From Helicobacter pylori PMSS1 (lineage in GTDB: Bacteria > Campylobacterota > Campylobacteria > Campylobacterales > Arcobacteraceae), in assembly GCA_945883785.1 (NCBI GenBank), contig CAMCYD010000006.1:1-42700 (forward strand): a DNA stretch of 42,700 nt, in the 5' to 3' direction. The notes beneath the pieces were generated by a model. The model did not search any database, was not told the origin of the DNA, and was given only the letters and a program-made list of their open reading frames with translations. This document shows positions 5,305 to 38,316 of this stretch, one piece after another. The translations under genes and the position numbers were made by a program. How positions within the stretch are numbered: position 1 is the stretch's first letter; every line of letters begins with the position of its first letter.

Positions 5305-5856
5305 ATGGTATTACTAATAGTAGGTGCAGTGGTTGAAACACTTGCAAAACATATGACCCAAAAGTTTTTAGATAATATGGATGGGGTTAAAATAGGTGGT
5401 GCTCCATCGTGGTATATGGAACCTGTAAAAGACCAAATGTGTGTATTTACGCATGATGCTGGCGGATTAAACTCTATAGAAATCGCAAAAGAAAATGCAC
5501 ATTTAAAAATGACAAAAAAAATAGATGGGATTATTGATATTGTTGTTTATGAAAGTGTTGCCGATGCAAAAGATGCGAAATCTAAAGCTGTTTTGGCTGA
5601 GTTTAAAAAAGATTCAAATTTAGATTCATTTGTGAAAAAGAATATGAATTACAGTAAAACTGTGTATGAAGATGAGATAAAAACAGCTTTTGTTAGGGCT
5701 TGTATACCAGTTCTTACAATGCAAGACTACCAAAAAGGAAGATTAATGAGTATAAATGAAGCAGTTTTGAGTAATAAATCAAATGCAGCTTTTGACTCTT
5801 TAGGTGAAGAATATGGTGACGATAAGTCTAATAAAAAAGATAAATTTGATTTTTAA
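5305..5856 (+). CDS. LPP20-like envelope protein, first gene of the operon
   Basis: This 183-residue protein contains 'GGAPSWYMEPVKDQMCVF', which resembles the 'P-x-W' entry of the LPP20/FlgP-like domain. A block 'GGLNSIEIAKENAHLKMTKKIDGIIDIVVYES' follows, where such domains place a long helix and a beta strand. The N-terminus is a short hydrophobic segment (MVLLIVGAVVETL) without a lipobox Cys, so it may be a membrane anchor or an uncleaved signal. The tail is charged (GDDKSNKKDKFDF). It has the best ribosome site in the operon and lies 9 bp before a true LPP20-like lipoprotein, so the two may act together. LPP20 membership is a motif-level judgement. Confidence 0.55.
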   Translation: MVLLIVGAVVETLAKHMTQKFLDNMDGVKIGGAPSWYMEPVKDQMCVFTHDAGGLNSIEIAKENAHLKMTKKIDGIIDIVVYESVADAKDAKSKAVLAEFKKDSNLDSFVKKNMNYSKTVYEDEIKTAFVRACIPVLTMQDYQKGRLMSINEAVLSNKSNAAFDSLGEEYGDDKSNKKDKFDF

Positions 5857-5865
5857 GGGGATAAT

Positions 5866-6426
5866 ATGAAAAGTATAAGTAAAAAAGTAAAGTTTGCATT
5901 TGGCTCATTGGCTATAGCGATAGGTTTAGTAGGATGTGGTCAGCCAGAAATTTATGTAAATCCAGAGTACGACGGAGCTCCAAAATGGGTACAAGTTCCA
6001 AATGTTGAGGGTAAAATAGCTGAACTTGGAAGTGCTCCAAAAAATAATATGAATAATGTTGGATTTCAAAGAGAATTAGCTATGGCAAATGGTAGAAATA
6101 ACTTAGCAAAAAGATTAGAAATCAATGTTAAATCAATGTTCAAATCATATGCTTCTCAAACATCTGCAAATGGTGGAACGATGGATATGACAGCTGAGTC
6201 TGTTTCAAAACAAATTACAAAACAATCATTAAGTGGAACTTCACAATATGATGCATGGACAAGTAAATCTGGTACGCTTTATGTACTTATGGTTCTTGAT
6301 ACTGCGTCTGTAGCAAAATTAGTTGAAGAAAATGCAAAAACATCATTCGCAAGCGATGAAGCAGCATACCAAAGAGTTCTAGCAGCAAAAGCACAAGGCG
6401 AATTAACTAAAGAATTAGAAAAATAA
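5866..6426 (+). CDS. LPP20 family lipoprotein
   Basis: This 186-residue lipoprotein has a classic lipobox 'GLVGCG' with Cys 24. The mature part has 'GAPKWVQVPNVEGKIAELGSAP', then 'RELAMANGRNNLAKRLEINVKSMFKSYASQT', then 'YDAWTSKSGTLYVLMVLD'. This is the order seen in LPP20/FlgP-type outer-membrane lipoproteins of Campylobacterota: a PxW entry, an alpha-helix rich in Ala/Arg/Asn, and a paired strand ending in 'LYVLMxLD'. Such proteins form rings or assemblies at the outer membrane. An AAGGGGA ribosome site precedes the ATG. Its partner here is unknown. Several other genes of the operon also encode lipoproteins. Confidence 0.75.
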   Translation: MKSISKKVKFAFGSLAIAIGLVGCGQPEIYVNPEYDGAPKWVQVPNVEGKIAELGSAPKNNMNNVGFQRELAMANGRNNLAKRLEINVKSMFKSYASQTSANGGTMDMTAESVSKQITKQSLSGTSQYDAWTSKSGTLYVLMVLDTASVAKLVEENAKTSFASDEAAYQRVLAAKAQGELTKELEK

Positions 6427-6452
6427 AAATATTTGTGAAGTGAGGAAAACAA

Positions 6453-7520
6453 ATGAAGAGGTTGCTGACATTATTGTCATTATCTGTTGCCGTATTTGGT
6501 GCAGATAATGGATTATTGTATAAAGTTGTTGATAATGGGAAATCGTTAGGGTATTATCAGATTAATTACAATAACAACGGAAAAGCTATTGAAACAAAAT
6601 CGTATGGTATGGCTGATAAAATCGATTTCTTTGTGGACAAAGATATAATTGAAAAAAATGCTGGCACAAGAGAGATAACATTTCAAAAAAATGACACAAA
6701 AGAGATATTTAAAATCCAAACAAAAATGTCTTTAATGGATAAAGCTACAAAAGAAGAATTTGATAGAAAACTCAATAAAGTTGAAGGTGACGATATGTTG
6801 CTTATCACAAAAAAAGGGGATGAATCTATTGAATTATTTAACAAGCGAAAAACTATTATATTTACCCTTGAAGAAGTTTTAGAACAAACAATGAAAAATA
6901 AAATTGATGAAGATATTCTCTTATTTGATCAGCTTGGAGTTATGAAAATGATAGCTGCAGTTCAAAAAACTTCTAAAGGTTTTGATATCATCAACAAAAC
7001 AAAAGAGAGCAAATATATTGGTATTGAGATGAAAAATAAATTTCCTTATAAAGTGAAATCATATGTTTCTGAATGGTCACTTGAATTGATAGGTGCAGGT
7101 GAAATGCAGGGATATGAAGCAAATATGGATAGTGTAAATGATAAAGTAAAGCTTGATATTGAAAATAAAATAAAAGACAATAGCAATATTTCGTTTGGAA
7201 GCATAGCAACTCTTTCTCTAAAAGGTGACAAACTTTTTGCAGATGCTACTATAAAAGTAAATTATGGAGAAAAACTTTCACAAAGTGATGGTAGAAGTTT
7301 TTGCAACAAAGCTTATAAAGAAATCTTTAAAAAAGGTAGCAAAATTGTGTATGGCGAAGATAACTGCATGGTTCAAGTTCAAACAATTTTGTCAGCACAA
7401 GATACAATAAATCCTTTAATAGCCGAACTTACAAGTAAGCATGAGCAATTAAAATTCACAAAAAATTATGAAGTGTCTAAAAATGTTTTAGTATATAAGC
7501 TGATGAATGAAATAAAATAG
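6453..7520 (+). CDS. Periplasmic protein of unknown function
   Basis: The protein has 355 residues with a Sec signal peptide (MKRLLTLLSLSVAVFGA) and no lipobox, so it is a soluble periplasmic or outer-membrane-associated protein. The mature part is lysine-rich with alternating short strands ('GLLYKVVDNGKSLGYYQINYNNNGKAIETKSYG'). This start resembles beta-sandwich lipid- or substrate-binding folds. Two Cys near residues 283 and 302 ('SFCNKAYKEIF', 'DNCMVQVQ') could form a disulfide. I do not recognise the family. It lies 26 bp after the LPP20 lipoprotein gene and 11 bp before the next exported protein, well inside the operon. Confidence 0.6.
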   Translation: MKRLLTLLSLSVAVFGADNGLLYKVVDNGKSLGYYQINYNNNGKAIETKSYGMADKIDFFVDKDIIEKNAGTREITFQKNDTKEIFKIQTKMSLMDKATKEEFDRKLNKVEGDDMLLITKKGDESIELFNKRKTIIFTLEEVLEQTMKNKIDEDILLFDQLGVMKMIAAVQKTSKGFDIINKTKESKYIGIEMKNKFPYKVKSYVSEWSLELIGAGEMQGYEANMDSVNDKVKLDIENKIKDNSNISFGSIATLSLKGDKLFADATIKVNYGEKLSQSDGRSFCNKAYKEIFKKGSKIVYGEDNCMVQVQTILSAQDTINPLIAELTSKHEQLKFTKNYEVSKNVLVYKLMNEIK

Positions 7521-7531
7521 GGAGAGAATGA

Positions 7532-8314
7532 ATGAAAAGAAAAATAAATTCAAAAATGTCTTTGATTGGAGTTGGATTGCTTTTTGGTACAACCTCTCTT
7601 ACCTCGGCGACACTAAATAATAAAATGTTTTGTGAAAAAGATAAGGCTCATTATAAATATTGTGATAATTTAACGAAATATCATCATGTAAAAAAAGATG
7701 ATTTGGAAAATATTATGTATATGACTGACAGTCTTAAGTATCTATCAAATGCAAATTCAAGAGACCCAATAGAAAGAGACCTTGCTGATAAAATTTTTGA
7801 AGTGATGAAAGATATCAATAAAACAATTAAAATAGCTGCAAATGAAGTTAGAAAAGAAAAATACAAAGCACTTGGAATGGTTGTTGTTCCGGTTCAGTAT
7901 GGTTCTAACGAAAAGTTGATTTATCAAGAGTTAAGAGATATGGCAAGAGGAGATTTGAGAAATTCTATTGATAAATTTTATACTGAGTATAAAGCTCATG
8001 ATGATGAGTTTTTGACAGATTTACTTCGTGCGAATGGTTCTACATTTGTTATTCTTCCTGAAATAATTCAATATGATGAGATGAAAAAAAATCTAGCACA
8101 AAAAAAAGAAACAGATTTTGAAATAGCACTTGATGGTTTTTTTGGACTTGAAAAAGGGATGAGTGAATCAGTGATTACCTTATCTTTAAAAGTGGATAGT
8201 GAAGGAAATGTTAGAAGAGTTTTTGATAGAAAACAAGAATATGAAAAAGTGAGAAAAGCTATCGTGGACCTTATTGATAACGCACTTGGCGATATTGCAA
8301 GTCAGGATTTATAA
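7532..8314 (+). CDS. Exported protein, possible TolB-N/CsgG/LpoB-like fold
   Basis: The 260-residue protein starts with a signal-like N-terminus (MKRKINSKMSLIGVGLLFGTTSLTSA) after a GGGAG ribosome site. Three Cys lie near residues 34-44 of the precursor ('MFCEKDKAHYKYCDN'). The middle has 'ALGMVVVPVQYGSNEKLIYQELRDMARGDLRNSI', then 'FLTDLLRANGSTFVILPEIIQYDE', and the end is 'VRKAIVDLIDNALGDIA'. A strand, a dimerisation-like helix, a second strand, and a closing amphipathic helix recall the small periplasmic folds of CsgG, LpoB and TolB N-termini. That assignment is structural guesswork. The stop is one base before the next start. Confidence 0.6.
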   Translation: MKRKINSKMSLIGVGLLFGTTSLTSATLNNKMFCEKDKAHYKYCDNLTKYHHVKKDDLENIMYMTDSLKYLSNANSRDPIERDLADKIFEVMKDINKTIKIAANEVRKEKYKALGMVVVPVQYGSNEKLIYQELRDMARGDLRNSIDKFYTEYKAHDDEFLTDLLRANGSTFVILPEIIQYDEMKKNLAQKKETDFEIALDGFFGLEKGMSESVITLSLKVDSEGNVRRVFDRKQEYEKVRKAIVDLIDNALGDIASQDL

Positions 8315-8315
8315 T

Positions 8316-8774
8316 ATGAAAAAGATATTGATATTATTTTTTTTATGTTCTACCTTTTTATTTGCTGGAGATGAGTTAAAAGTTCTTATGAGTGAAAAAG
8401 TGCCTTCAGGATATGATGATGAAGCTTATAAAAAAGCTATTGTCCTTATGACAGAGGGAAGATTGTATCTTCAAGAGAAATACAAAAAAAAGATTACATT
8501 CTTATATGATAAAAACCTTGTAACGAGCAAAGACGATATTGAAGCAACTCTTCAAAAGAATGGGGCAGATTTTTATGTTTATTTAACAATAGATAAAAAA
8601 GAAACTAAAGATAATTTAGAAGATTGTTTATACAATCTTGAAATTTACAATCTTGAAAATAAAAGAAAAAAGACAGTAAAAACAAAGGCGACTATTAGAG
8701 ATAAAAAAGTTGTTCAGATTGAATATGGAGATTTGAAAAGTACTGCTAAGAATATAGCGAATGCTTTTAAATAA
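8316..8774 (+). CDS. Small periplasmic protein, same broad class as its upstream neighbour
   Basis: This 152-residue protein begins at the ATG at 8316, directly after the previous stop. A longer start at 8274 would overlap that gene and lose the signal peptide. The signal peptide is MKKILILFFLCSTFLFA. The mature part reads 'DELKVLMSEKVPSGYDDEAYKKAIVLMTEGRLYLQEKYKKKITFLYDK', then 'TLQKNGADFYVYLTIDKKE' and a closing helix 'YGDLKSTAKNIANAF'. The strand-helix-strand order with 'GADFYVYL' resembles the CsgG/TolB-N-like pattern of the gene before and of the one at 12379. No family is recognised with confidence. Confidence 0.6.
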   Translation: MKKILILFFLCSTFLFAGDELKVLMSEKVPSGYDDEAYKKAIVLMTEGRLYLQEKYKKKITFLYDKNLVTSKDDIEATLQKNGADFYVYLTIDKKETKDNLEDCLYNLEIYNLENKRKKTVKTKATIRDKKVVQIEYGDLKSTAKNIANAFK

Positions 8775-8792
8775 AAACTAAAAGAGGAATAC

Positions 8793-9878
8793 TTGTATTT
8801 ATATATTTTTAGAACATATTATTTTGCTCTTAAAATAATTTTTATTATTTTAAATAAAGTAACTCAATATATCAGTTTTGTATCTATTACTTTATTTATA
8901 ACATTCTTTTTGTTGATTAAGCAAGGATTGTTTATATATGAAGATATATTTATAAATTCGCTTAAAGGGCTATATCCAGAATTTATAACAAATTCAAAAA
9001 CGATTGCAGGTGAGCTAGAAGCAACTTATCAAGATAAAATTACAATTAGAGATGAAGTATTTGTTCATAGTGAAAAAATCGAATTTAGTTATGATGGAGA
9101 TAAAGACATAACTAAATTTATAAATGTGAGAACATACGACAATGACTACAAAGAACAGTTATTTTCTACCCTTAAGATTACTGAAGAGTGCAAAGAAACT
9201 GACAAAACTATTTGGATTAGTTCAAGGCTATATGATAATTTAGCTCAAGATGGAACTTTTAATAAAACAACACTTTATTTTAAAAATGACAATGATGAAT
9301 ACCTTCCATACTCAATATGTAAATTTCAATTAGACAATAATGAAAAGTGGATACTTGTATCAAATAAGGGACGCAAAGATATAGCGTATTTGCCTTTTCC
9401 AAAAAAAGTGATTTATACAAATAATCAAGAGTTAAAACAAAGTTTATATACAGCATCTGGCGTGGATAATTGGAAAAAATATATTGATTATGATGATTTA
9501 GGTGTATTCTTACTCGCTCAAGAAGTTTCTGGAACTTTCTTAATGACATTTTTTATTTTCTTAGTGTCATTTATGGTTATAGCTTTTTCCTCTTTAGGAA
9601 AAGAGTTTGAGTCTTCAGTATTTTTAATTAAATTGTATGGATTAAATATTTATAGAACAGTTGTTTTATATACATTCTTTTTTATTATTTATTCATTTTT
9701 TATAGCAGTTTTTGTGTATTTAGAATATTCATTTATAACATATTTAATAGATGTATCATTTAACTTTACCGTAGAATTAGACTATAAATTATTTATTTCT
9801 ATTTTTGATTCTCTTCTGTTGTTAGGTTTTTTTGTAGCATTATTTTTATCTTTAAGATACCATAGGTTGCCATTATGA
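8793..9878 (+). CDS. FtsX/MacB-like ABC permease, subunit 1
   Basis: The 361-residue inner-membrane protein starts at TTG 8793, which has AGAGGA placed correctly upstream and no competing ATG nearby. One membrane helix lies near residues 29-50, a periplasmic domain of about 190 residues follows, and three helices come near 247-270, 288-318 and 335-357. This 1+3 topology is that of FtsX/LolC/LolE/MacB permeases. 'FLIKLYGLN' between helices 2 and 3 matches the coupling-loop position 'LLKxxGxS' that contacts the ATPase. It overlaps the next permease gene by 4 bp. Together with the ATPase at 11639 it would make a type VII (mechanotransmission) ABC complex. The substrate is unknown. Confidence 0.75.
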   Translation: MYLYIFRTYYFALKIIFIILNKVTQYISFVSITLFITFFLLIKQGLFIYEDIFINSLKGLYPEFITNSKTIAGELEATYQDKITIRDEVFVHSEKIEFSYDGDKDITKFINVRTYDNDYKEQLFSTLKITEECKETDKTIWISSRLYDNLAQDGTFNKTTLYFKNDNDEYLPYSICKFQLDNNEKWILVSNKGRKDIAYLPFPKKVIYTNNQELKQSLYTASGVDNWKKYIDYDDLGVFLLAQEVSGTFLMTFFIFLVSFMVIAFSSLGKEFESSVFLIKLYGLNIYRTVVLYTFFFIIYSFFIAVFVYLEYSFITYLIDVSFNFTVELDYKLFISIFDSLLLLGFFVALFLSLRYHRLPL

Positions 9879-11638
9879 CAAAATTAAGTGTTATATTTTT
9901 CATATTAAAGCAAAGGATTCCAAATATTATTTTGCTTTCAATTATGTTCTCATCCTTAATCATAATTTTTATGGTAGGAATAGGCGTTCAAAATGTTTTT
10001 TATAATTATTTGCGTTCGAGTTATGGAAATATTCCAGAATATAAAATTAAATTGAGTGACATAAGCGATGAGAAAATTTTGAAGCTTCGGGATGAAATGA
10101 AACAAAGTTTTCCAAGTAAAAAAATGGATGCGTTGCTAGGTTTTGAAACTATGCAAAATGTTTCTTTGGTTGATGGCGAAGGTCTGATGTTAACTCGTGG
10201 ACTTGATTTGTTTATCAAAGGGTTAAAGTTTAAAAAAGATTTAATGCTTCAAATTGATGGAAAATTGGTTTCACTTCCAATTGAAAGAATAGAATATCAA
10301 GAAGAGATGAGTATAAGTTTGCATCTTAATGGACAAACTATAAAAGACCCACAAAGTGTTCAATTTATTTCAACAACAACCAATGAGGCATTAGAGTATG
10401 GATTTTGCAAAAAAATAAGTGTCGAAGATGACCTCTTAACCATTCAAGCAATTGACTGCAAAACTAAATCAGATGATTTACAAGATATTTTGGAAAAAGA
10501 CAATGCGAAAAGCGTAAAAATAGAACTTGATGGCAATGTGTTTGAAACAGGTATTATTTTCAATGATACAAAATACCAATCATTAGTTTTAGATGCAAAA
10601 CAAATAAAAGAAGCAAAAAATATTTCTTTGTCTTATAAAGATATTGAAATTGACAATAGTATGGTTTCAAAGCTTGAAGTCTCAAATAATGAGCTTATTG
10701 TTGATTTTAGAAGCGAAAATAATACTGGAAAAAAATATAAATTATTTTTATCCAAGATTTTAAGAGATTTTATTAATTACAATCGGATGGTTTTAAAATT
10801 GCAACTTCATGCTTTTGAGGATGATGATGCAAGTGAAAAACAAGATAAAGAGTTGGTTTATCTTGATGAATTAACTGATTTAATTGACTTAATTTTTGCA
10901 AAAGAAAAAGGTAACTTAGCGATATCATCAACATTTTTAGCACAAGATTTGAATAATTTCGGTATTTTGGATAATTTTAATATCCAAACTAAAGATGGAA
11001 AATTTGACATAAATATTAGAAGTACGCTTGATTATCATCCTGAAAAGTTATATGATAAAAATATTTTGATAGTAAATAAAGATTTATTAGATGAGCAGTT
11101 TCAAACAAACAATAAAAATAACTTTATAGATTTATACCTCGATGAATCTTTTAACAAAGAGGAATTAGAAAAACTGAGTAGCATTATTAAAAAATATGAC
11201 ACTTATTTTAAAATCATTTCGCAAGATGAAATTATCCCTTCCATAGGAGCCAAAAAAGTTGTATTTAATGCAGTTGTTTTTGGTGGGGGAGCTTTTATTT
11301 TGGTGATATTATTTATTGCTATGTATATTGTTCTTAGACAATTTTATTCAAATTTTAGTTCAGAGTTGTCACTTTTAAAACTCTATGGTTCAAAAATTCC
11401 ATTTCAAGCTTTTATAAATTCAGTCAGTTTCTTTATTTCTGCTGTTTTAAACTATATTTTTCTCCTTCAAGAGGAAGAAGTTATCAACAAAATAATGTTG
11501 CAGTATTTTTTTATTGAATATCAAATTAGTATTGTTGATTATTTCATTTCAATAGGAATATTACTTTCATATGTAGTTGCGATGTATTATCTTGAATATC
11601 AAGAGATAAAAAAATTAAATCTAATTAAGGGACAATAA
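9875..11638 (+). CDS. FtsX/LolCE-like ABC permease, subunit 2
   Basis: The 587-residue inner-membrane protein has a first helix near residues 17-42 and a very large periplasmic domain of about 420 residues. Three C-terminal helices lie near 465-489, 510-534 and 553-575. The coupling loop reads 'SLLKLYGSK', like its partner's. The periplasmic domain is much larger than in LolC or LolE, which suggests it grips a specific client or partner. The Lys/Asp-rich mature domain shows no enzyme motif. The stop abuts the ATPase start with no gap. Two unequal permeases plus one ATPase is the LolCDE arrangement. No MacA-like adaptor or TolC-like protein is present in the operon. Confidence 0.75.
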   Translation: MTKLSVIFFILKQRIPNIILLSIMFSSLIIIFMVGIGVQNVFYNYLRSSYGNIPEYKIKLSDISDEKILKLRDEMKQSFPSKKMDALLGFETMQNVSLVDGEGLMLTRGLDLFIKGLKFKKDLMLQIDGKLVSLPIERIEYQEEMSISLHLNGQTIKDPQSVQFISTTTNEALEYGFCKKISVEDDLLTIQAIDCKTKSDDLQDILEKDNAKSVKIELDGNVFETGIIFNDTKYQSLVLDAKQIKEAKNISLSYKDIEIDNSMVSKLEVSNNELIVDFRSENNTGKKYKLFLSKILRDFINYNRMVLKLQLHAFEDDDASEKQDKELVYLDELTDLIDLIFAKEKGNLAISSTFLAQDLNNFGILDNFNIQTKDGKFDINIRSTLDYHPEKLYDKNILIVNKDLLDEQFQTNNKNNFIDLYLDESFNKEELEKLSSIIKKYDTYFKIISQDEIIPSIGAKKVVFNAVVFGGGAFILVILFIAMYIVLRQFYSNFSSELSLLKLYGSKIPFQAFINSVSFFISAVLNYIFLLQEEEVINKIMLQYFFIEYQISIVDYFISIGILLSYVVAMYYLEYQEIKKLNLIKGQ

Positions 11639-12382
11639 ATGCCATTAGAATGTAAAAATATTAGCTTTTCATTTTATGATAAAGAGACAAAGAAGATGAA
11701 AGATATCGTAGAAGATTTATCTTTTAGTCTTCAAGATAAAGGTGAGATAAAACTAGTTTATGGACATATCGGTGTTGGAAAATCGACATTGATATATATC
11801 TTAGCGGGACTCCTTGATAATTTTAAAGGTGATGTTATTTGGGATGATTTTAAATTCAACAAACTTAATTATAAAATAGATACTTTAAGAAGCAAATATA
11901 TGAGTATCAATTTTTCAAACTTTTTTTATATAAAAGATATGACAGTCGAAGAAAATGTCATTTTCCCAGCTGTATTTGCAAGACGAAAGCAAAAAGATAT
12001 TGATGAAAGACTTGAAAAGATTTATCACAGTTTTTATCATATTCAGTTAAGTCCAACTGAAACATTTAGCTTAAAAGATTATAGGCACAAAAAGATAGGA
12101 ACACTTTCAAATGGTCAAAGAGAGATTGTGATGTTAGCAAGGATGTTGATTAGTGATTCTAAATACTTATTGGCAGATGAGATGTTAAGATCGTTTAATA
12201 CTGATGTAAAAAAACAAATGCTTGAAATTTTATTTAATAATTTTAATTTGGGAGTTGATAACTCAATGCTCTTGATTACACATGATGATAATATGAGAGA
12301 ATATATGGAGTATTACGCTAAGGGTAGAGTGAATATAGAGGCTTATGATTTTAAAAATAAAACTTTGGTAAAGAGGGTATGA
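11639..12382 (+). CDS. ABC transporter ATPase, LolD/MacB-like
   Basis: The 247-residue ATPase has Walker A GHIGVGKST (42-50), signature LSNGQ (156-160), Walker B 'KYLLADE' with catalytic Glu 181 and H-loop His 215. It should power the two FtsX-type permeases encoded just upstream. Three positions are unusual. The signature is LSNGQ instead of LSGGQ. The residue after the catalytic Glu is Met instead of Pro (ADEM). Where LolD has its Q-loop Gln, this protein appears to have Asn 91. All ATP-hydrolysis residues are otherwise in place, so it is probably active but diverged. It overlaps the next gene by 4 bp at ATGA. Confidence 0.85.
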   Translation: MPLECKNISFSFYDKETKKMKDIVEDLSFSLQDKGEIKLVYGHIGVGKSTLIYILAGLLDNFKGDVIWDDFKFNKLNYKIDTLRSKYMSINFSNFFYIKDMTVEENVIFPAVFARRKQKDIDERLEKIYHSFYHIQLSPTETFSLKDYRHKKIGTLSNGQREIVMLARMLISDSKYLLADEMLRSFNTDVKKQMLEILFNNFNLGVDNSMLLITHDDNMREYMEYYAKGRVNIEAYDFKNKTLVKRV

Positions 12383-12891
12383 TGAAAAAGATATTGATTG
12401 TTTTGGCACTTAGTTTGCAGTTGTTTTCGTATGATTTTGTGTTGTTAAATAATTCATCCGTACAAGATGATTTTATAATTTCAACGATAGAAGACCAGAT
12501 GAAAAATTATTATTTTGATGATAAAAATAAAATTGTTTTTCATGAATTAAGTGCCAAAGAAGCAATTATTAAGCTTTTGAAGAATTATGATTATACAGAT
12601 GATAAGCAAGTTCAAGATGAGATGATTAAAAAAAATGAAGAGCTTGAGGATGATTTGAGACTTATTTTTGAAACAAAATACTTTTTGATTGTATCAGAAT
12701 CAATAGACAGAGAAGGGCGACCAGAGCTTCGTGTTGAATTAAAAGTGGATAATGTAAATTATTTGGATACCCAATTTATTATGCCAAGATTGGAAGACAA
12801 AGAATTACATTATGTCAATACAATAGCAAATATTGTACTTACCTATATCGCTTATAAAGACAATGCTTTTATAAAAGTACAACAACTCTAA
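12379..12891 (+). CDS. Small periplasmic protein of unknown function
   Basis: The 170-residue protein starts at ATGATG, so the first or second ATG could be used. It has a signal peptide (MMKKILIVLALSLQLFS) and no lipobox. The mature part is 'YDFVLLNNSSVQDDFIISTIEDQMKNYYFDDKNKIVFHEL', then 'IFETKYFLIVSESIDREGRPELRVELKVDNVNYLD' and a final helix. Strand and helix order is similar to the proteins at 7532 and 8316, which suggests a family of three diverged periplasmic partners flanking the ABC genes. Translation is coupled to the ATPase. The similarity is by pattern, not by a recognised domain. Confidence 0.55.
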   Translation: MMKKILIVLALSLQLFSYDFVLLNNSSVQDDFIISTIEDQMKNYYFDDKNKIVFHELSAKEAIIKLLKNYDYTDDKQVQDEMIKKNEELEDDLRLIFETKYFLIVSESIDREGRPELRVELKVDNVNYLDTQFIMPRLEDKELHYVNTIANIVLTYIAYKDNAFIKVQQL

Positions 12892-12901
12892 AAGGACTCG
12901 A

Positions 12902-14914: not shown

Positions 14915-15368
14915 ATTTTTAGCAAATATCGTATCATTTTTAATTTTTCTCTTTTTTACAGGTTGTGGAAGTGAATCGGTGCAAAATCAAATCACACAAA
15001 TAAAAACAACCGCAGTAAATTACATAGCTCCTCAAAAAATAGAACCACCAAAAGACACTAGGCCAAAATGGGTCAATAATCCAGATTTTGGTGGTAATGT
15101 AGGGGTTGTATCTATTGTAAGCAAAGAAAAGATAAAAGATAGAGCAAAGCTCGAATATATAGCAAAAATGAAAGCTCAAGCCGAATTTGAAACAAGAAAA
15201 GGTACAAATGTTGACTCATCAACAAAAGTAAAAACAAACAATGATGGTGAGATGAATTTGGAAGAAAATATAAAAATTTCTTCAAGCAGTATCCAAACGG
15301 CAAAACTTGAAGTCGAAGATACTTATGAAGATGAAGATAATTTTTATTTATGGATGGTTAAAAGATGA
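14907..15368 (+). CDS. LPP20-like lipoprotein
   Basis: The 153-residue lipoprotein has the lipobox 'FFTGCG' with Cys 20. It has a linker of about 30 residues and then an LPP20-type module: '[23 protein letters not shown]', a helix '[22 protein letters not shown]', a strand-rich block and a final '[18 protein letters not shown]'. The final 'FYLWMV' is the usual paired strand before the stop. It overlaps both neighbours (8 bp and 4 bp), so it is probably made in step with the FGE-like protein and the first giant protein. It may be an outer-membrane-bound partner of either. Confidence 0.7.
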
Positions 15369-25285: not shown

Positions 25286-25294
25286 GAGATGAGA

Positions 25295-28983: not shown

Positions 28984-31900
28984 AAAAAATATATTGCAAA
29001 AGTTTTTAATTTTAGTTGCATTGTTGTTTTCAAGTGCTCTTTATGGGGATGAAGGAACTGTAACTTTTACAAATAAAAGTTCGTACACTTCTTCTATGAC
29101 ACCACAAGCTATTAAGAAAATAGGTAATAATACTTATGGTGCAAATGGTGTAAATGGAGTAGTTATCTTTAGTGATGATGGCGGGATGCTTAGTTTAGTA
29201 AAATCACAAAGTATAAGTGGTGATACGATTAAAGATATAGCAGTTGAGGGTGAAAATATTTATGCGGTATCTACAACGAAATTGTATGTATTGGATTCTA
29301 ACCTTACAATAAAAGGAACTATTCTTTTATCTGGTGAAGTCAATAGTGTAGAAGTAAAATCAAATATTGTTTTTATAGCAAATGGTACAAATGGGATAGT
29401 TTTAGTTGATGCAACAACAAAAACAGCACCTTCCAATGTCGGAAAGTTGTCAACTACAGATGCTAAAAAAATGATTATCAAAAACAATACTCTTTATTTA
29501 GCGGATGGTTGGGGAGGATTGAAAGTTATTGATATAACTACACCTACTTTTCCACGAGTGGTAACTACTGATGACACTGAAACATACACAGATATAGCAT
29601 TTGACACGACCAAGTTATTTGCATTGTCAGGATCAAAAATACGACCTTTTGACATAACAAATGAAATTTTACCTATTAAAAAAACTCTTTTTGACACAAC
29701 AAAAGTTATTACTTCTATTACTTCTATTTTTTCATATGATTCAAATGTTTATATTGGAACAACTAGTGGGATTAGCTCATATTCAACAGTGGATATGAAT
29801 AATTTAGTTTCGAGTGGAACTTATAGTATTTCAAATGTAAATGATTTGTTTATAGTAGGGGGGTATGGATATATCGCGACATCAAATAGTATCAACTTGG
29901 CTTTGTTTGATTCTGATTTTGCAGATGATCTGACAAAAGCACATATTGCCACATCAATTGGAGGATTGCCTCAAAAGATTGAAGGAACCTTGCCTGATGA
30001 TGAAAATGATGTAGATTATATTAAATTAATTTTACCTAATTTTGGGATTTTTTCATTAAGTGTTGATACAAAAATAGGAAATCTAAAAGTAACTCTTTTT
30101 GATGAAAATAATGAAACAATAGCTGAAACAAATAATACAACATCGGCTATTACAGATTTTCAAAAGTCACTGACCGATGGAACATATTTTTTGAAAATAG
30201 AATCAACAACAAATAGTTCAGGTATTTATAATTTATCTATGAGCGTAGCAAGTGATGATTTTACAGATAGTAAAGATGGAGCATTGAGTGTTTTTGACAA
30301 GGATACTATTGCAGGAAATATCTCAACAACTGCAGATAAAGATATTTTCAAAATATTTATAGCAGATGCTGGAAAATTAACACTCAATAGCTCTGAGGCA
30401 TGGTTGAAAGCAAGCATATTAAAAAACAACAAAGATGGTGTGATAAACGGAACTGGAAGCATAGAAGAGGAAGGGATATTCTTCGATATTCCTTATGGTG
30501 GAACTTATTTTATTGAAATTTCTGGTGATATTACAGGGGATTATAGTTTTACAAATAATTTTTCAACAGAGGGTACAAATCCATACGAGGATGTTGATAA
30601 GCCTCAATTGACAAAGCTTCAAGAGCAAATTTTTACTGGAAATAAAGTTATTACAAACTCTGATTTCGTATTTGTCTCAGATAGTGGAAAAGTAATATAT
30701 ACAAAAGATCAAAAAACACTAGGATCTGTTGATACACTACCAAATACAAAAGCTAACATAAAAGATATGGTTATTGCTGGTGAATATCTCTATTATTCTC
30801 TTGAAGGTACTTTTGGAATAGGAATAGCGAAAGTTGGATCAAATGGAGCACTGACCGTACAAAAAGAAAGTTTTTCAGTAGATAATGGAGTTTCAATATC
30901 AAAATTAGTCCTTGATGGAAACTTTTTGTATGCATTTAGTGGAACGAAACTTTATAAAATAAATATCGCTACTAAAACAGCTCCTGTTTTGGATTCAGCA
31001 AATATTTATAATATAGGTACTGAAATTTACGACATTGATATCAAATATTCAGCTTGGAATAGGGTAGGCGCACCAACAAAAACAAGAAATGGTTATATAT
31101 ATATAGCTACACAAAATGGCTTAAAAGTTTTTGGGATAGATGATAAAGCACTTCTTACAATTTATGAAGGTATAGATACGAATTCAACAGCTAAATTAAA
31201 AATATACAATAATAGAATGTACACAATGAATAATTCTACTAAAAGTTTAAATATTTATGACATTAGTGTTCCTGTGTATGCCTCAAAGTTAGGTTCTGTG
31301 AGGGTAGATGAGAACACCTCTTCCATAGAAGTGACAAAAAATAGATTATTTCTTGCACCAAAAATGCAGGTTATCGATATTAGTGATGAAAAAAATCCAA
31401 ATCCAATAAATAGTCTTCCATCTTTAACTGGGCAAAAAGATATCGCACTTTTTGGAGGGGTTGCATATAGTATTGGTTCTAACTTAACTTCGTATGAAAT
31501 CCAAAATGACTACAACAATAGTGCATTATCTGTGGGTACAACTATCAAAGGAAATATCTCAAAAATAGTAAAAGAGTATGGAACAGGTAGTGATACAGAT
31601 AAATTTATAATAACAGCGACAAACAGCGGAACAATTACTCTTGATTTTAATGGAACCGTAGGGTTGGATTTCAATACAACACTTACTTCAAAAACATCGT
31701 CAGATATCTCTGTGGGGACTTATGAGGTAGAAGTTTTTAGTACAAATGGAACAGATGGGAATTATACTTTAAATACAACATTTGCCAAAGATGATTTTCC
31801 AGATGAAATAGCAAACGCAACATATTTAGACTTTGATAGTAATGGGATAGTTGTAAAAAGTGGGAATTTAAGTAGTACGGGTGATGATAAAGATTATTTT

Positions 31901-34900
31901 AAAATTGATTTGACAAGAAGAGGAACATTAACACTAAAATTAACAGGGAATGTTAATGCTAAAGTTGAGCTTATCGATAAAAATAAAAAAACTATTTATA
32001 GTAAAGAATATAATACAATCAATGGTACAACAGAATACAAAGTTGAAACTACTTTAAATCCAGACACATATTATCTTTTGGTAACAAAGGAAGATAATAA
32101 TACTACAAAAGTAGAAGGTAACTATAGTTTAGAGGTTATTTTTACTCCAAATGATGACTTCGTACTCAATGAAAAGATACCATATGATCAACTTATTTAT
32201 GGAAATAGTTTTATATATACAATGCTTGGAAATAAACTCAATGTCTACAGTCATCTTCTCCAAAAAGTTTCACAGAAAGAATTAACTTATGATACTACTA
32301 AAATGTGTTCTAAACCGATTGTTGTTGGAAACTATATGTACTACAATCAAAAAAGTACAGATACTCAGACAATAAATCCTTGTGATCAAACAAAATATAC
32401 ACTCTCAAACGGTGGATATGTAAAATACAATCTCAATGTTGGTGAAGATGATAGAAATGAAATATCTTCAGAATATTATAGAGTGTATCAAGAAGCATTT
32501 ATGACAATGGAATATGAAAAAGATCCATATATGGGTATCACAGCACTAGCAAATATAGATACAAATTCTCTTGTGATGATAGACTCTAGTAAAATAGCAA
32601 CTTATACTATCCCAACTGATAAAACACAACAAATGACTCCACTTGACAGCGAGAAACTAATAGCAAGCAATAAAGTGATAGTTGATGGAAATTATTTGTA
32701 TTCATTGGATAGGGATGGGAATAAATTAAATATTTATGATATATCAGATAAAGCACATCCAATTTTGAAAAAAGACTTTGATACCTATACATATTCGAGA
32801 GATATGATTTTAAAGGGAAATTATTTATATCTTGCATCGAACAGTGGAATAATCCATGTCCTTGATATTAGTAATAAATCTGCACCAACCAAAGTATTTT
32901 CTGGACTGAAACAAGATCAATGGAATTATTACTATGATACAGTTTACAATATGGTTTTAAACAGTGATGATAATAAAACACTTTATTTGCAACACAATAC
33001 TGGATTTTATATAGTTGATATTTCAGATCCAACGGCACCTGTATATAAATTAAAATATTATAGTCAATCATATTCCTCTGATGGTATAAATAGAAGTCTC
33101 AAATACTTGAACAAAAAAGTTTATAATCTTTATGCTTATTCTTTAGATGTTGTGGATGTTAATAATAGTACGAATCCAGCATTGTACGCATTTAAGTCTA
33201 ATGGAATTAGTGCTTCTGATATTGTTGTTGTTTCTGAAGATACAATCTATATCAAAAATTCAAGTAATATTGTAAAAACTTCATTAGCGAAGATAAAATC
33301 AAATGATAGTAATGTATCTAATATATCAAGTATTTACGACACAATAAAATATCAAAATGGTGTGATATATCAAGCTTCATCTTCTAAAATAGATGAATAT
33401 GATGAAAATCTAACATTTATAAAAAATGATATCAATATTACGCAATCACCAGCAGATTTTACACTCAATGATGGATATATTTATGTTGCCAATTCAGATT
33501 TGGGATATTCGATTTATCGTGATGGTAACTCTACTAGGCTCAATGTTGTAGGATACAATACTACGACAAATAATTTTCAAGATATGGTACTCAAAAACAA
33601 CATCGCTTATGTAGCAAATAGCAATAGTGAAGCTGGAATAAAAATATATGACATAAGTGATAAAGCAAATATTGTTTATAAATCACTAGTAAAAGTGACA
33701 GATAATTCTAATTATGGTCAATCTATTTCAAAAGTCGCAATTGATGGAAATAATATTTATCCTTACAATACATATTTTTTAGCAAAATATAGTATTTCAA
33801 ATCCAACAAATCCTACGAAAGTTTTAGGTGTAAGTAATTTAAAATCTTCGTCAAGTCTATATTATTCTGATATAAGTATAGGCAAAATGATAATCGATGG
33901 TAATTACGGTTACATCGCAAATCAATACTATAATAACTATGGGTTAACAATTATAAATCTTACTGACTTTTCAATAGTGAAGAATTTTAAAATATCAACT
34001 ATAGGTACGCCAAAAGATTTGGTCAAAAAAGGAAATACTGTTTATATCGGTGGAAGTAGTGGTTTTGCAGCTGTAGATGTGTCTTCGTTATCAACTCCAA
34101 GTTTGAAAAAAACTATAGATAAATACCAATATGTAAATACTTTAGCACTTGATGGAGATTTTCTTTATGTTGGGACAAGTGGAAATTTAATTAAATATGA
34201 TATTTCAGACCCACAAGTACCAGTTATAAAAGAGATAGCTGCAAAAGAAAACTCTAATTATCCTAGCGATACTTCTAGCTTTAGTGTGGATAAAATGCAT
34301 ATTTATAATGGAAAAATTTATGGAAATGTTACTAAGGAAGATAAACTAAAAATTATCGATTTAAATAGTTCACATCAGTTGCCATACTATACATATTTGA
34401 GTAAACTCAATATTTTGTATGGTGATGATAAGTATCTCTATGAATATGGGACACTCACTTCTGACAGTTTTGGAAATAGTGTAAATAAAAGTATCCTTAG
34501 TAGAATTTTAAATACAAATGACACTAATAATTACGAATTGACCGAAAGTAAAGGTCAATACGAAGTTTCTGGTATCACGATAGTAAGAAGCAATGGGGAA
34601 GATTTGTATATTGCATTAGGAAAGACATTGCAAGTTGTTTCGTTTGATAGTTTCAATAAAGCAACAGTAAAATCAGAAATAACATTTGATAATAATATCA
34701 CCCATATGGAAGTTTTGGGAACTAAGAAAACTCTCTATATTCATATAGAAGGGACAAAATATATCAAAGTGTATGATATTAAAGACAATTCAAATCTTGC
34801 AAAAATACAAGAATATGATACAAATGAAATATTAAATAGCATCTTCTTTAGAAGCAATAAAGTCTATATATCTTCTCCAAACTATGGTGTAAAAATAGCT

Positions 34901-35434
34901 TATACAGATGAAAAAGGGATACTCGTTCCAGATAAAGATTTTGAAAATATAGGAGTAAGTGTCGATAATGTATATAGTGTTGACAATAGTACTTTTAACT
35001 ACACAGCTACAGATGGAAATATTTCAAAACTGAATGTATTTATTTTGAAAGAGAAACTCTCAGATGGGATATCAGATTCTTCATATTCTCAAGGAAGTGA
35101 AACAAAACCTCCAAAAGAAGGGTGTTTTATAGCAACAGCTGCATTTGGAAGTTATTTTGAAAAACATGTAAAAGTGCTTCGAGATTTTAGAGATAGATAC
35201 CTCAAAACAAATCCAATAGGACTTGCTTTTGTTGATTTTTATTATACCTATTCACCTGCAATTGCCGATATGATAGCGGATAATGAAATAGCAAAAGTTG
35301 TGATTAGATCGATATTGACACCGATTGTGTATCTTATAGAGTATCCATTGTATGGATTCTTACTGATTGGATTGTTATTTGGAGTGCGAAGAGAATATAG
35401 AAAATCAAGAGCGGAAGGGACGGTAGCACAATGA
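28976..35434 (+). CDS. Second giant exported CFI-box-CTERM protein with LVIVD-propeller and PPC-like repeats
   Basis: The protein has about 2152 residues. The ATG at 28976 is chosen over an in-frame ATG at 28922 because it gives an immediate signal peptide (MNRKNILQKFLILVALLFSSALYG) and a tight overlap. Residues about 25-340 are LVIVD-type propeller ('NNTYGANGVNGVVIFSDDGG'). Pairs of PPC-like sandwiches lie near 344-423 and 455-528, and near 872-935 and 970-1055. Propeller repeats ('LYLADGWGGLKVIDITTP', 'DGNYLYSLDRDGNKLNIYDISD') fill the rest. The end is '[12 protein letters not shown]' (Cys 2050), '[13 protein letters not shown]', 'FYYTYSPAIADMIA', a hydrophobic segment and a basic tail. It is a paralog of the giant at 15365 without the N-terminal Ig block, and the last about 100 residues are the most alike. 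Confidence 0.8.
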   Translation: MNRKNILQKFLILVALLFSSALYGDEGTVTFTNKSSYTSSMTPQAIKKIGNNTYGANGVNGVVIFSDDGGMLSLVKSQSISGDTIKDIAVEGENIYAVSTTKLYVLDSNLTIKGTILLSGEVNSVEVKSNIVFIANGTNGIVLVDATTKTAPSNVGKLSTTDAKKMIIKNNTLYLADGWGGLKVIDITTPTFPRVVTTDDTETYTDIAFDTTKLFALSGSKIRPFDITNEILPIKKTLFDTTKVITSITSIFSYDSNVYIGTTSGISSYSTVDMNNLVSSGTYSISNVNDLFIVGGYGYIATSNSINLALFDSDFADDLTKAHIATSIGGLPQKIEGTLPDDENDVDYIKLILPNFGIFSLSVDTKIGNLKVTLFDENNETIAETNNTTSAITDFQKSLTDGTYFLKIESTTNSSGIYNLSMSVASDDFTDSKDGALSVFDKDTIAGNISTTADKDIFKIFIADAGKLTLNSSEAWLKASILKNNKDGVINGTGSIEEEGIFFDIPYGGTYFIEISGDITGDYSFTNNFSTEGTNPYEDVDKPQLTKLQEQIFTGNKVITNSDFVFVSDSGKVIYTKDQKTLGSVDTLPNTKANIKDMVIAGEYLYYSLEGTFGIGIAKVGSNGALTVQKESFSVDNGVSISKLVLDGNFLYAFSGTKLYKINIATKTAPVLDSANIYNIGTEIYDIDIKYSAWNRVGAPTKTRNGYIYIATQNGLKVFGIDDKALLTIYEGIDTNSTAKLKIYNNRMYTMNNSTKSLNIYDISVPVYASKLGSVRVDENTSSIEVTKNRLFLAPKMQVIDISDEKNPNPINSLPSLTGQKDIALFGGVAYSIGSNLTSYEIQNDYNNSALSVGTTIKGNISKIVKEYGTGSDTDKFIITATNSGTITLDFNGTVGLDFNTTLTSKTSSDISVGTYEVEVFSTNGTDGNYTLNTTFAKDDFPDEIANATYLDFDSNGIVVKSGNLSSTGDDKDYFKIDLTRRGTLTLKLTGNVNAKVELIDKNKKTIYSKEYNTINGTTEYKVETTLNPDTYYLLVTKEDNNTTKVEGNYSLEVIFTPNDDFVLNEKIPYDQLIYGNSFIYTMLGNKLNVYSHLLQKVSQKELTYDTTKMCSKPIVVGNYMYYNQKSTDTQTINPCDQTKYTLSNGGYVKYNLNVGEDDRNEISSEYYRVYQEAFMTMEYEKDPYMGITALANIDTNSLVMIDSSKIATYTIPTDKTQQMTPLDSEKLIASNKVIVDGNYLYSLDRDGNKLNIYDISDKAHPILKKDFDTYTYSRDMILKGNYLYLASNSGIIHVLDISNKSAPTKVFSGLKQDQWNYYYDTVYNMVLNSDDNKTLYLQHNTGFYIVDISDPTAPVYKLKYYSQSYSSDGINRSLKYLNKKVYNLYAYSLDVVDVNNSTNPALYAFKSNGISASDIVVVSEDTIYIKNSSNIVKTSLAKIKSNDSNVSNISSIYDTIKYQNGVIYQASSSKIDEYDENLTFIKNDINITQSPADFTLNDGYIYVANSDLGYSIYRDGNSTRLNVVGYNTTTNNFQDMVLKNNIAYVANSNSEAGIKIYDISDKANIVYKSLVKVTDNSNYGQSISKVAIDGNNIYPYNTYFLAKYSISNPTNPTKVLGVSNLKSSSSLYYSDISIGKMIIDGNYGYIANQYYNNYGLTIINLTDFSIVKNFKISTIGTPKDLVKKGNTVYIGGSSGFAAVDVSSLSTPSLKKTIDKYQYVNTLALDGDFLYVGTSGNLIKYDISDPQVPVIKEIAAKENSNYPSDTSSFSVDKMHIYNGKIYGNVTKEDKLKIIDLNSSHQLPYYTYLSKLNILYGDDKYLYEYGTLTSDSFGNSVNKSILSRILNTNDTNNYELTESKGQYEVSGITIVRSNGEDLYIALGKTLQVVSFDSFNKATVKSEITFDNNITHMEVLGTKKTLYIHIEGTKYIKVYDIKDNSNLAKIQEYDTNEILNSIFFRSNKVYISSPNYGVKIAYTDEKGILVPDKDFENIGVSVDNVYSVDNSTFNYTATDGNISKLNVFILKEKLSDGISDSSYSQGSETKPPKEGCFIATAAFGSYFEKHVKVLRDFRDRYLKTNPIGLAFVDFYYTYSPAIADMIADNEIAKVVIRSILTPIVYLIEYPLYGFLLIGLLFGVRREYRKSRAEGTVAQ

Positions 35435-38316
35435 AAAAAATAATACATATAATTTTTATCACTCTCTTGTATGTAGTTTTGATGACTGGATGCGGTGGTG
35501 GAGGCTCTACTTATAAAGAAGATGTTGCTCCAGCTCAGGATGCAAAAAATATCGGGACAGGGTATTTTATCGATTCACCAGTTTCTGGAATATTTTATAG
35601 AAGTGGAAAAATCAGTGGAGTAACTGATGTGAATGGAACTTTCAAATATGATGCAACACCAGATGTCGCCTACAATACAGATATTTCATTTAGTGTAGGA
35701 AATATCAAACTAGGAACGCTTCAAGTAACTGATATAAATGAAACTGACCATAAATTGTATCCAAATGAGCTTCTTGGGTTTGACAGAAAAGATACAAACA
35801 ATACCCAAACAATTATGATGCTACGACTTTTACAATCTTTAGATGATGATGGAGATACATCACATGGTATTCATATCTTATCTACACTTCAAAATAAACT
35901 CGAAATAAGCCCAATTAACTTTGAAAATAATGTAACAGAAGCGAATTTACATAAGACTATGTCAGATGTGAAAATGAAGCTAGTGAATGAATTTGTAGCC
36001 AGAAATCATTTTGAGAAAGGCTTAAATGATACTTTTGGATGGAATGTTGATACTATCGGACCTTTGGTTCCCGTTGTTTTAACTACAAATAATCTTACCA
36101 ATGAAGATACTTTTGCATTGGCATTGAGTGGGGAGGCAAATAGCACAATCTATATCGATAATGTCGATAGTGGAATCGTTCTAGATTCTTCAGGGATAGC
36201 AAATCTTTCGCTCAATACTTCAGGGAGTGATGGCAATAAAACATTTCTTATTTATTTAAAAGATACAAAAGACAACCTAGGTGAACACTTAACATATTTA
36301 GTGAAAAAAGATAGCACACCACCGCAAATAACAGTGCCATCTTCAATAGATATGTTTGAAAAAATTTCAAAAGTTCCATTAACTATCAGTGCAACAGATG
36401 TGAGTCCTCTCACCTATTCTCTAAGCGGAACAGATGCAAGCAGTTTTACTCTTGGAAGCGATAGAGTGCTTAACTTTAAAACAGCTCCTAGTTATGCAAC
36501 AAAATTATCTTACAGTATCAATATTGATATTTTTGATGGGATAAATAGTGTAAGTGTTCCATTAACTATCAAGATTTTGCAAACAGACTATGATTTTAGT
36601 GGTGATACTACTTGGGAACAAGATAGTGTAGCAATGAAAAGCGGGAAGATTTCAGGCAATCAAATCACATGTATAGAAAAAAAAGTAACTGGAAATATTT
36701 CATTTGACTGGAAAGTTTCTTCAGAATATTATGCTGATTATCTAAAATTTTATATCGATGGTTCAAATTATAATTCAATATCAGGAGAACAAGATTGGTC
36801 GAGTCAAAGTTATTATCTAGTAGGTAATCATACAGCAAAATGGTGTTATACAAAAGATGGAGCTTCTTCAAGTGGTGAAGATGCTGGATGGATTAGAAAT
36901 GTAGTTGATGAAAATACTACGACACATATCCCATATTTTACCAATAGTAATTATGCACATGTAAATGAAAATCAAAAAAATGCGATAACTTTAACTGCAA
37001 CAGATGCAGATAATAACCCATTGACTTATTCTATTTCAGGGGTAGATGCAAGTTATTTTGATTTGAATAGTTCAAGCAGAGTAGTGACATTTAAAGTTGC
37101 ACCTGATTATGAAGATGAAAATCGAACCTCTCATCGATATCAATTTACAGCTACTGTAAGCGACGGGATCTATAGCAAGGCACAATATATTTTTATTTAT
37201 ATCAATAATACTGGAGAAGATACAATTCCGAATAGTTTTAGTTTCACATCGCAATCGAATGTTGCACTTTCAAGTGCAATTGAATCAAACAGCATAACTA
37301 TTTCAGGTATTGATGCATCTGCTCTAATATCTATTTCAAATGGAGAATATAGTCTTAATAGTGGTGCTTGGACAAATGCAGATGGATCGGTTTCAAATGG
37401 AACTATTGTAAAAGTAAGACATACAAGCTCAGGAACATCAGAATCAAATGTGACTACAACATTGACAATTGGTGGAGTAAATGGGATGTTTACTTCATCA
37501 ACACTCAAAGAGGTAGGTTTATATATTCGTTCTGCAGTGTATGACAATAACCGTACAGTCACACCAAATGATGATGAGCTTTATATTTATTTTAGTAAAG
37601 AGATAAATCCATCTTCAATCAGTAGCGATATGAGCCAAAACTATGATATTAATGGAACAGGAGCCATAGGTAGTGCGTCAATTGGAGAGTATAATAGCAC
37701 AATTTTTTATAGGCATAAAGTATCTTTAAACTCAAATGGAACATCCTCTGTTGCCTTAGACAATAATGGTAGTACAAAAATAGTGTTGCATCAAAGTGTG
37801 ATTAGGGATATAAATGGGAGCTACCCATTGGATTATAATCAAACGATTGTAGATACATTGACCCCAGTGCTAAAAACTGGGCAAACTACTAGTTATGCAA
37901 CAAATGATGACGGTACTTATAAAAAAGGGGTAGCAAGAAGCTATACAAGAGATGCTGGCAAAGCGGTAGTCACAGACAACGTCACAGGCTTACAGTGGCA
38001 AGATGACAACACCACTACACCATCAACTCTGACTTGGGATTATGCGATAACTTATTGTACAAACTTAGAGTTTGGTGGATTTAGCGACTGGCGACTCCCA
38101 TCAAAAGAAGAGCTAGAAACTATCGTTGATTATGGAAAATATAGCCCTAGTATTGACCAAACTTTTACAAATGTTACCTCTAGCTATTATTGGAGTTCTA
38201 CTACCGATGCGAGCTACACTAGCTATGCTTGGCTTGTCTCTTTCAACTATGGTTATACGCGCAACGACGTTAAGACGGATAGCTATTATGTTCGGTGTGT
38301 TAGAGACGGACAGTAA
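35431..38316 (+). CDS. DUF1566 lipoprotein with cadherin-like modules and a DGR-type variable C-terminus
   Basis: The 961-residue lipoprotein starts at ATGA overlapping the giant gene. Its lipobox is 'LMTGCG' with Cys 21. Residues about 38-190 are a 'GYFIDSPVSGIFYRSG...SGVTDVNGTFKYD' carboxypeptidase-regulatory-like region. Cadherin/Ig-like modules follow ('PLTYSLSGTDASSFTLG', 'AITLTATDADNNPLTYSISG'). Residues about 840-961 are a DUF1566 (Lcl C-terminal, C-type-lectin-like) domain: 'GLQWQDD', 'FGGFSDWRLPSKEELETIVD', 'SSYYWSST', 'YYVRCVRDGQ'. The last 46 codons (from residue 916) differ from the paralog at 39070 almost only at first and second codon positions, the pattern of a retroelement-mutated variable region. 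It is the last operon gene, and a displayed, diversified ligand binder is the natural reading. Confidence 0.85.
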   Translation: MKKIIHIIFITLLYVVLMTGCGGGGSTYKEDVAPAQDAKNIGTGYFIDSPVSGIFYRSGKISGVTDVNGTFKYDATPDVAYNTDISFSVGNIKLGTLQVTDINETDHKLYPNELLGFDRKDTNNTQTIMMLRLLQSLDDDGDTSHGIHILSTLQNKLEISPINFENNVTEANLHKTMSDVKMKLVNEFVARNHFEKGLNDTFGWNVDTIGPLVPVVLTTNNLTNEDTFALALSGEANSTIYIDNVDSGIVLDSSGIANLSLNTSGSDGNKTFLIYLKDTKDNLGEHLTYLVKKDSTPPQITVPSSIDMFEKISKVPLTISATDVSPLTYSLSGTDASSFTLGSDRVLNFKTAPSYATKLSYSINIDIFDGINSVSVPLTIKILQTDYDFSGDTTWEQDSVAMKSGKISGNQITCIEKKVTGNISFDWKVSSEYYADYLKFYIDGSNYNSISGEQDWSSQSYYLVGNHTAKWCYTKDGASSSGEDAGWIRNVVDENTTTHIPYFTNSNYAHVNENQKNAITLTATDADNNPLTYSISGVDASYFDLNSSSRVVTFKVAPDYEDENRTSHRYQFTATVSDGIYSKAQYIFIYINNTGEDTIPNSFSFTSQSNVALSSAIESNSITISGIDASALISISNGEYSLNSGAWTNADGSVSNGTIVKVRHTSSGTSESNVTTTLTIGGVNGMFTSSTLKEVGLYIRSAVYDNNRTVTPNDDELYIYFSKEINPSSISSDMSQNYDINGTGAIGSASIGEYNSTIFYRHKVSLNSNGTSSVALDNNGSTKIVLHQSVIRDINGSYPLDYNQTIVDTLTPVLKTGQTTSYATNDDGTYKKGVARSYTRDAGKAVVTDNVTGLQWQDDNTTTPSTLTWDYAITYCTNLEFGGFSDWRLPSKEELETIVDYGKYSPSIDQTFTNVTSSYYWSSTTDASYTSYAWLVSFNYGYTRNDVKTDSYYVRCVRDGQ

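Follow-up and report, generated by a model that had tools for sequence, protein, structure and literature searches.

Overview of the Locus

ATP-binding cassette (ABC) systems of type VII are represented by FtsEX-EnvC, LolCDE-LolA, MacAB-TolC and YbbAP-TesA. In their layout, as described for MacB (PMC5985334), a large periplasmic loop separates the first transmembrane (TM) helix from three further ones, and what a type VII system does is determined by its partner protein (PMC12646458). Here, we analysed a run of 19 genes (g1–g19) at positions 5305–38316 of contig CAMCYD010000006.1 from assembly GCA_945883785.1, deposited as Helicobacter pylori PMSS1 and placed by GTDB in the Arcobacteraceae (2.65 Mb in 193 contigs; genome label G000). 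The whole stretch of DNA analysed, termed the window, is this entire contig (C6; 42,700 bases). With a probability of about 0.6, these genes form a composite operon whose parts are separable, with g5–g11 as its core, a type VII-like ABC system that has not been described before.

A preliminary description made from the sequence alone had presented the locus as one undescribed secretion and display system, in which an ABC and barrel part exports or anchors two giant proteins and the last gene serves as a changeable binding tip. Its gene map was right: 19 open reading frames (ORFs) follow one another on the plus strand without internal stops, the widest intergenic gap is 26 bp (g2/g3), and two starts were moved (g5 to the ATG at 8316 and g18 to 28976). 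Eight junctions overlap. The ATGA-type overlaps proposed earlier were confirmed as 4-nt overlaps at five of them (g6/g7, g8/g9, g11/g12, g12/g13 and g18/g19); the other three measure 8, 11 and 8 nt.

Architecture of the ABC Core

All features of the window described below lie on the plus strand unless stated otherwise. The core opens with g5 (8316–8774), a small exported protein and the first gene of a block that is kept in a sister-species genome (G003). It is followed by two permeases. Hydropathy analysis of g6 (8793–9878; 66% identity to G003) placed TM helices at residues 30–48, 238–256, 286–304 and 333–351, with a periplasmic loop of ~190 aa after TM1. In g7 (9875–11638; 59% identity to G003), the corresponding helices lie at about 19–43, 467–485, 513–531 and 551–569, and the loop spans ~420 aa. 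Both proteins show the type VII arrangement, in which a large periplasmic domain follows the first of four TM helices. The segment between TM2 and TM3 ranked first to third of 339–565 segments per permease for the coupling-helix motif, with scores far below those of true members.

The ATPase g8 (11639–12382; Pfam E 2.4e-19; 85% identity to G003) is LolD-like. It retains the Walker A motif (GHIGVGKST), the Walker B glutamate (LLADE) and the H-switch (THD). Serine replaces the Q-loop glutamine, the signature reads LSNGQ instead of the canonical LSGGQ, and the D-loop has an asparagine; the same residues are found in the G003 homologue. The protein is 26% identical to LolD and scores 94 bits against the LolD cut-off of 308.

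Downstream lie g9 (12379–12891), a second small exported protein kept in G003, and g10 (12902–14914; 51% identity to G003), an exported coiled-coil protein with a C-terminal FGE/SUMF1-like domain (Pfam PF03781, E 4.4e-10). Long helices occupy about residues 54–118 and 243–341 of g10, the AlphaFold2 (AF2) model of which is of low confidence (pLDDT 46). We regard g10 as a candidate partner protein of the ABC complex. The block closes with g11 (14907–15368), an LPP20-like lipoprotein. A type IX secretion system (GldK-like FGE protein plus barrel) was also considered and dropped, as the operon genes include no SprA, GldL/M/N or other part of it; the FGE domain of g10 matched GldK below threshold (E 0.045, 13 vs 350 bits).

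The locus shares with the described type VII systems a separate LolD-like ATPase, permeases of the TM1/loop/TM2–4 kind and a conserved neighbouring periplasmic partner candidate. It differs from them in having permeases with no detectable sequence similarity, no EnvC, LolA, MacA or TesA, an ATPase lacking the Q-loop glutamine and a partner candidate with an FGE domain. It also departs from a MacAB-TolC-like tripartite exporter, since Pfam and NCBIfam searches of the 19 genes found neither a membrane-fusion/periplasmic adaptor nor a TolC-like channel gene.

Two results speak against placing the core among type VII systems. Neither permease gave a Pfam match at E ≤ 10, FtsX included, and hhalign comparison of both with E. 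coli LolC, LolE, FtsX and MacB detected no similarity (probability ≤ 1%). The composite reading also has to reckon with a poor AF2 model of g6 (pLDDT 52.7), which gave no fold match and meaningless Foldseek matches. The earlier label of FtsX-type permeases was not confirmed; what agrees with it is the arrangement of one plus three TM helices and, weakly, the coupling-helix motif. Because the permeases lack sequence similarity to FtsX, LolC, LolE or MacB and the coupling-helix test is only suggestive, we do not class g5–g11 as a type VII member and describe it as a complex that would behave like one.

A lipoprotein-releasing complex of the LolCDE kind, formed by g6–g8 and serving the lipoproteins of the operon, is possible but improbable. 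Two unlike permeases combined with a single ATPase recall LolCDE, LolD is the nearest relative of the ATPase, and the operon encodes five lipoproteins. However, the ATPase falls well short of the LolD cut-off, the permeases do not resemble LolC or LolE in sequence, their loops are of unlike size (about 190 and 420 aa), and the G003 block contains one lipoprotein only.

Conservation and Distribution of the Core

G003 is a fragmented metagenome-assembled genome (MAG) of a sister species, in which absences hold at the sensitivity of the search. Its contig C127 carries g5-g6-g7-g8-g9 and its contig C214 carries g9-g10-g11, in the same order as in the window. The contig break falls inside g9; the two pieces continue each other, and the gene junctions are nearly those of the window. 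Past g11, the G003 sequence does not continue with g12: a DUF4160 gene comes after 38 bp, and a further small gene begins behind it. A pair resembling this DUF4160 gene and its small neighbour (L045, 2642–3044) is also found on G000 contig C69 (L095, 2940–3509).

No other stretch of the operon has a conserved gene order. Between G000 and G003, the dN/dS ratio was lowest for g8 (0.06), equal for g6 and g7 (0.18) and higher for g9 (0.20), g10 (0.33) and g11 (0.44); dS approached saturation. The permeases were detected in G000 and G003 only among ~100 family genomes, and the other order genomes sampled gave no match. Searches with a PDB profile and with tblastn against plasmids returned nothing beyond G003, and a pattern scan of 85,000 genomes, which reaches close relatives only, found no further member. 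Judged by these sequence comparisons, g5–g11 is constrained and lineage-restricted. A literature search yielded no paper on an LPP20/ABC operon in Arcobacter, and the ABC core looks undescribed.

Giant CFI-Box Proteins and Separability of the Operon Parts

The giants stand downstream of the core. The first, g12 (15365–22888; 2507 aa), has a signal peptide, Big_12/Ca_tandemer Ig-like domains, LVIVD repeats and a CFI-box C-terminus with a TM helix and a basic tail; the second, g18 (28976–35434; 2152 aa), combines LVIVD repeats with a CFI-box C-terminus. Both exceed the cut-off of 40 bits for NCBIfam NF041770 (CFI-box-CTERM), with 98 and 94 bits, respectively; they share 50% identity over the C-terminal 187 aa, and theirs are the only two CFI boxes of the genome. 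The giants combine an N-terminal signal peptide with a CFI box, a TM helix and a basic tail at the C-terminus. From this, the bodies of g12 and g18 are predicted to lie in the periplasm, held by an inner-membrane anchor, unless they are processed by an enzyme; no candidate for such an enzyme was recognised in the window.

A search of 299 order genomes detected CFI-box proteins in 17, one of them the genome of the window. Thirteen other Campylobacterales CFI-box loci were examined: none contained a homologue of g3–g7, g9–g11 or g13–g16, and generic ABC ATPases were present in three. Where examined, the bodies of these other proteins differ, with metalloprotease-like, PKD/ASH or TPR domains. In the loci examined elsewhere in the order, CFI-box proteins are single and stand-alone, whereas here two giants are accompanied by WD40, barrel-like and lipoprotein genes. 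A literature search returned no paper using the term CFI-box.

The remaining parts are separable as well. No CFI box was detected in G003 or six further genus mates. G003 lacks g3 and g4, and also g14, g15 and g16 (from one search for g15 and two for g14 and g16). A gene pair resembling g1/g2 occurs without ABC genes in the related genome G004, and pairs resembling g19 and its neighbour g20 are found elsewhere without the operon. The preliminary description had proposed a gene-neighbourhood comparison in Campylobacterota for co-occurrence of the ABC set, the barrel and the CFI-box proteins. In that comparison these elements occur independently, the outcome that the description had itself named as refuting: g5–g11 is present in G003, where neither giants nor a CFI box nor the barrel were found, and CFI-box loci stand alone in other relatives. 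The comparative evidence therefore contradicts export or anchoring of the giants by the ABC and barrel part; of the proposed secretion and display system, the ABC core does look undescribed, but a single machine is unlikely.

A single dedicated machine, in which the ABC and barrel part exports or anchors the giants and g19 forms the tip, is accordingly unlikely, with the odds strongly against it. It would account for the tight spacing and overlaps through all 19 genes, for the location here of the genome's only CFI-box proteins and for the barrel and lipoprotein genes between the giants. Against it stand the ABC block of G003, which has neither giants nor CFI box, the CFI-box proteins that occur elsewhere without the block, and the missing adaptor or TolC-like gene.

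Two considerations count on the other side of the separability argument. The G003 block lies on two small contigs of a fragmented MAG, and giants could sit on an unbinned contig. The tight gene spacing in G000 makes co-expression of the core with g12–g19 likely, which would allow a strain-specific partnership.

Lectin-Like Proteins and the Remnant of a Diversity-Generating Cassette

Targets of diversity-generating retroelements (DGRs) include the lipoproteins of Legionella and of the Treponema denticola TvpA type. The last gene of the run, g19 (35431–38316), is likewise a lipoprotein with a C-terminal C-type-lectin-like fold (Lcl_C; Pfam E 7.3e-34), and its variable region (VR; 38170–38316) is recognised by the codon-position pattern. 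A second target, g20 (39070–39558; Pfam E 2.7e-34), is a short exported Lcl_C protein outside the operon as first reported; the VRs of g19 and g20 differ from each other almost only at codon positions 1 and 2. Between g19 and g20, the last 50 codons differ at 12, 8 and 1 sites in codon positions 1, 2 and 3, compared with 19, 19 and 16 in the preceding 50 codons. Mutation of AAC/AAT codons in a common template would be expected to give this pattern.

The same genome carries a DGR cassette on contig C46 (L010, 436–3925), in the order target-avd-template repeat (TR)-reverse transcriptase (RT)-target. It comprises a target lipoprotein (2720–3925), bAvd (Pfam E 5e-12), the TR, an RT that a frame break divides into two ORFs, and Lcl_C target 2, which is short (436–876). 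Relative to the template, 17/49 and 22/49 adenines were changed in the two VRs, with 1–3 changes per other base, which is the DGR signature. The g19 protein is 37% identical to the first C46 target over 401 aa, and g20 is 58% identical to the second. As the two C46 targets flank the cassette core, so g19 and g20 flank the place where it would be expected.

That place is now occupied by a GIY-YIG ORF (38500–38787) flanked by GTCATTGCGAG-type repeats. Immediately before g20, positions 39030–39078 align with the RT gene of C46 at its 3′ end, with 42/49 sites identical (HANSYNLIKKVGTIDEKQ in the window, HGDSYNLKQKVGIIDEKQ in C46); the best of 2,000 shuffles reached 31 and the next best site of the window 28. 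A conserved leader of g20 was considered as another source of this match and ruled out, as the RT-tail sequence was not found upstream of the g20 homologue in the genome G005. Neither avd nor RT was found between g19 and g20, and the window contains no RT beyond the 49-nt tail. Because the RT tail persists before g20 while avd and RT were not found, we conclude that a target-avd-TR-RT-target cassette at the end of the operon probably lost its core. Similar DGR remnants are present in Treponema denticola (PMC4891356).

The locus thus differs from the Legionella and T. denticola systems in having no RT gene, avd or TR beside its target. A TR for the VRs of the window was not found in the assembly, which counts against a DGR origin of their variation. 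The C46 TR was tried as their source and ruled out by 8–12 non-A differences each at C, G and T. The earlier view of the last gene as a diversified lectin-like lipoprotein is upheld by the Lcl_C domain and the DGR-type pattern; it is qualified by the loss of the DGR core from the locus and by the g19–g20-like pairs found apart from the operon. We see g19 as a lectin-fold lipoprotein that would have been diversified in the past by a DGR whose core is gone here.

Several copies of the palindromic GTCATTGCGAG-type repeat surround the GIY-YIG ORF (38327–39007), and contig C46 has such repeats too, within the 3′ portion of its RT region. Further Lcl_C-like proteins of 487–758 aa are encoded on G000 contigs C83, C183 and C31 (L092, L093 and L094). 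Two of those on C83 precede an LPP20/DUF4384 gene, so that this genome has more than one place where Lcl_C and LPP20 genes are neighbours. A 576-aa RT-DUF3800-like protein (PADLOC RT-DUF3800_VII-A1) is encoded on G000 contig C138 (L009, 3578–5308).

The 3′ repeats and the GIY-YIG ORF are compatible with a gene island in which envelope genes were acquired that share no task and were inserted by chance in one strand direction. The patchy distribution, with the core in 2 of ~100 family genomes, fits such an island, as does the fact that g1/g2, CFI-box proteins and Lcl_C pairs each occur on their own. The 4-nt overlaps at the module borders g11/g12 and g18/g19, on the other hand, suggest long-standing translational coupling, and we hold this explanation to be rather doubtful compared with a composite operon built around the ABC core.

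Other Genes and Transcription Signals

The predicted domains were largely confirmed. HMM searches identified LPP20, ABC ATPase, FGE, WD40, LVIVD, Lcl_C and two CFI-box domains, and lipoboxes are present in g2, g11, g15, g16 and g19; about 10 operon genes had no clear family match in Pfam or NCBIfam. The statement that every product except the ATPase is exported or membrane-targeted was overstated, because g1 has no clear signal peptide.

Upstream of the core, g1 (5305–5856) is an LPP20-neighbour protein, relatives of which adjoin LPP20 genes in other Campylobacterales without ABC genes. It is followed by the LPP20 lipoprotein g2 (5866–6426; lipobox Cys24; Pfam PF02169, E 4.7e-14) and by g3 (6453–7520) and g4 (7532–8314), exported proteins of no family and with no match in 7 genus mates. 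Between the giants lie g13 (22885–23388), a small exported Glu/Lys-rich protein, the putative outer-membrane barrel g14 (23378–24448), the lipoproteins g15 (24458–25285) and g16 (25289–25978; no match elsewhere in the family genomes), and g17 (25981–28983), an exported 1000-aa protein with Ig-like domains and WD40 repeats. The barrel assignment of g14, proposed earlier, comes from inspection; no Pfam, NCBIfam or PDB match was obtained, and among 104 family genomes the gene is present only in G000.

The single strong promoter proposed at the front of the run was not substantiated. The best plus-strand promoter-like site just 5′ of g1 scored 9/12, and such sites were as common in shuffled sequence (115 vs 120; 113 vs 102). 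In the terminator scan, no plus-strand site stood out inside g1–g19, and the first tidy one lies past g20 (39936–39960). An Rfam search of the window returned no family.

Further downstream, on the minus strand, an AAA ATPase gene adjoins a gene for a DUF3226 protein (40380–41982). The two match the PADLOC candidate pair PDC-M38A/B and also AbiLi-like, and are a possible anti-phage pair.

Proposed Mechanism and Significance

In the composite operon proposed here, the core consists of two unlike 1+3-TM permeases, a LolD-like ATPase, two small exported proteins, g10 and g11. ATP binding would move the periplasmic loops and so perform work in the periplasm, as in FtsEX, LolCDE and MacB. The task may be defined by g10, possibly together with g11, and would probably be the placement or remodelling of envelope lipoproteins rather than secretion of the giants. 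The g12–g18 part comprises the giant propeller/Ig proteins with accessory genes, the giants staying in the periplasm unless a processing enzyme moves them outward. Finally, g19, with g20, would represent former DGR targets; because the avd-TR-RT core is no longer at the locus, the lectin-fold tip would be frozen unless an RT acts from elsewhere. The gene order, the separability of the parts, the DGR-type pattern and the RT remnant are observations; the biochemical roles and the position at the surface are inferred. A more ambitious version, in which this previously undescribed type VII-like machine, with its Q-loop-Gln-less ATPase and coiled-coil/FGE partner, was recruited in this strain for surface placement of both giants and of the variable lipoprotein, seems to us a long shot.

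As a caution, the locus indicates that a long gapless run of genes need not be one machine. If the core is confirmed, it would be a type VII-like ABC complex that has a new partner in the periplasm and departs from the canonical ATPase motifs, and would test which motifs mechanotransmission needs. At its 3′ end, the operon would show a DGR cassette after the loss of its engine, with both variable targets intact, and the case of g19 and g20 may help to explain DGR-type variable proteins that have no reverse transcriptase nearby.

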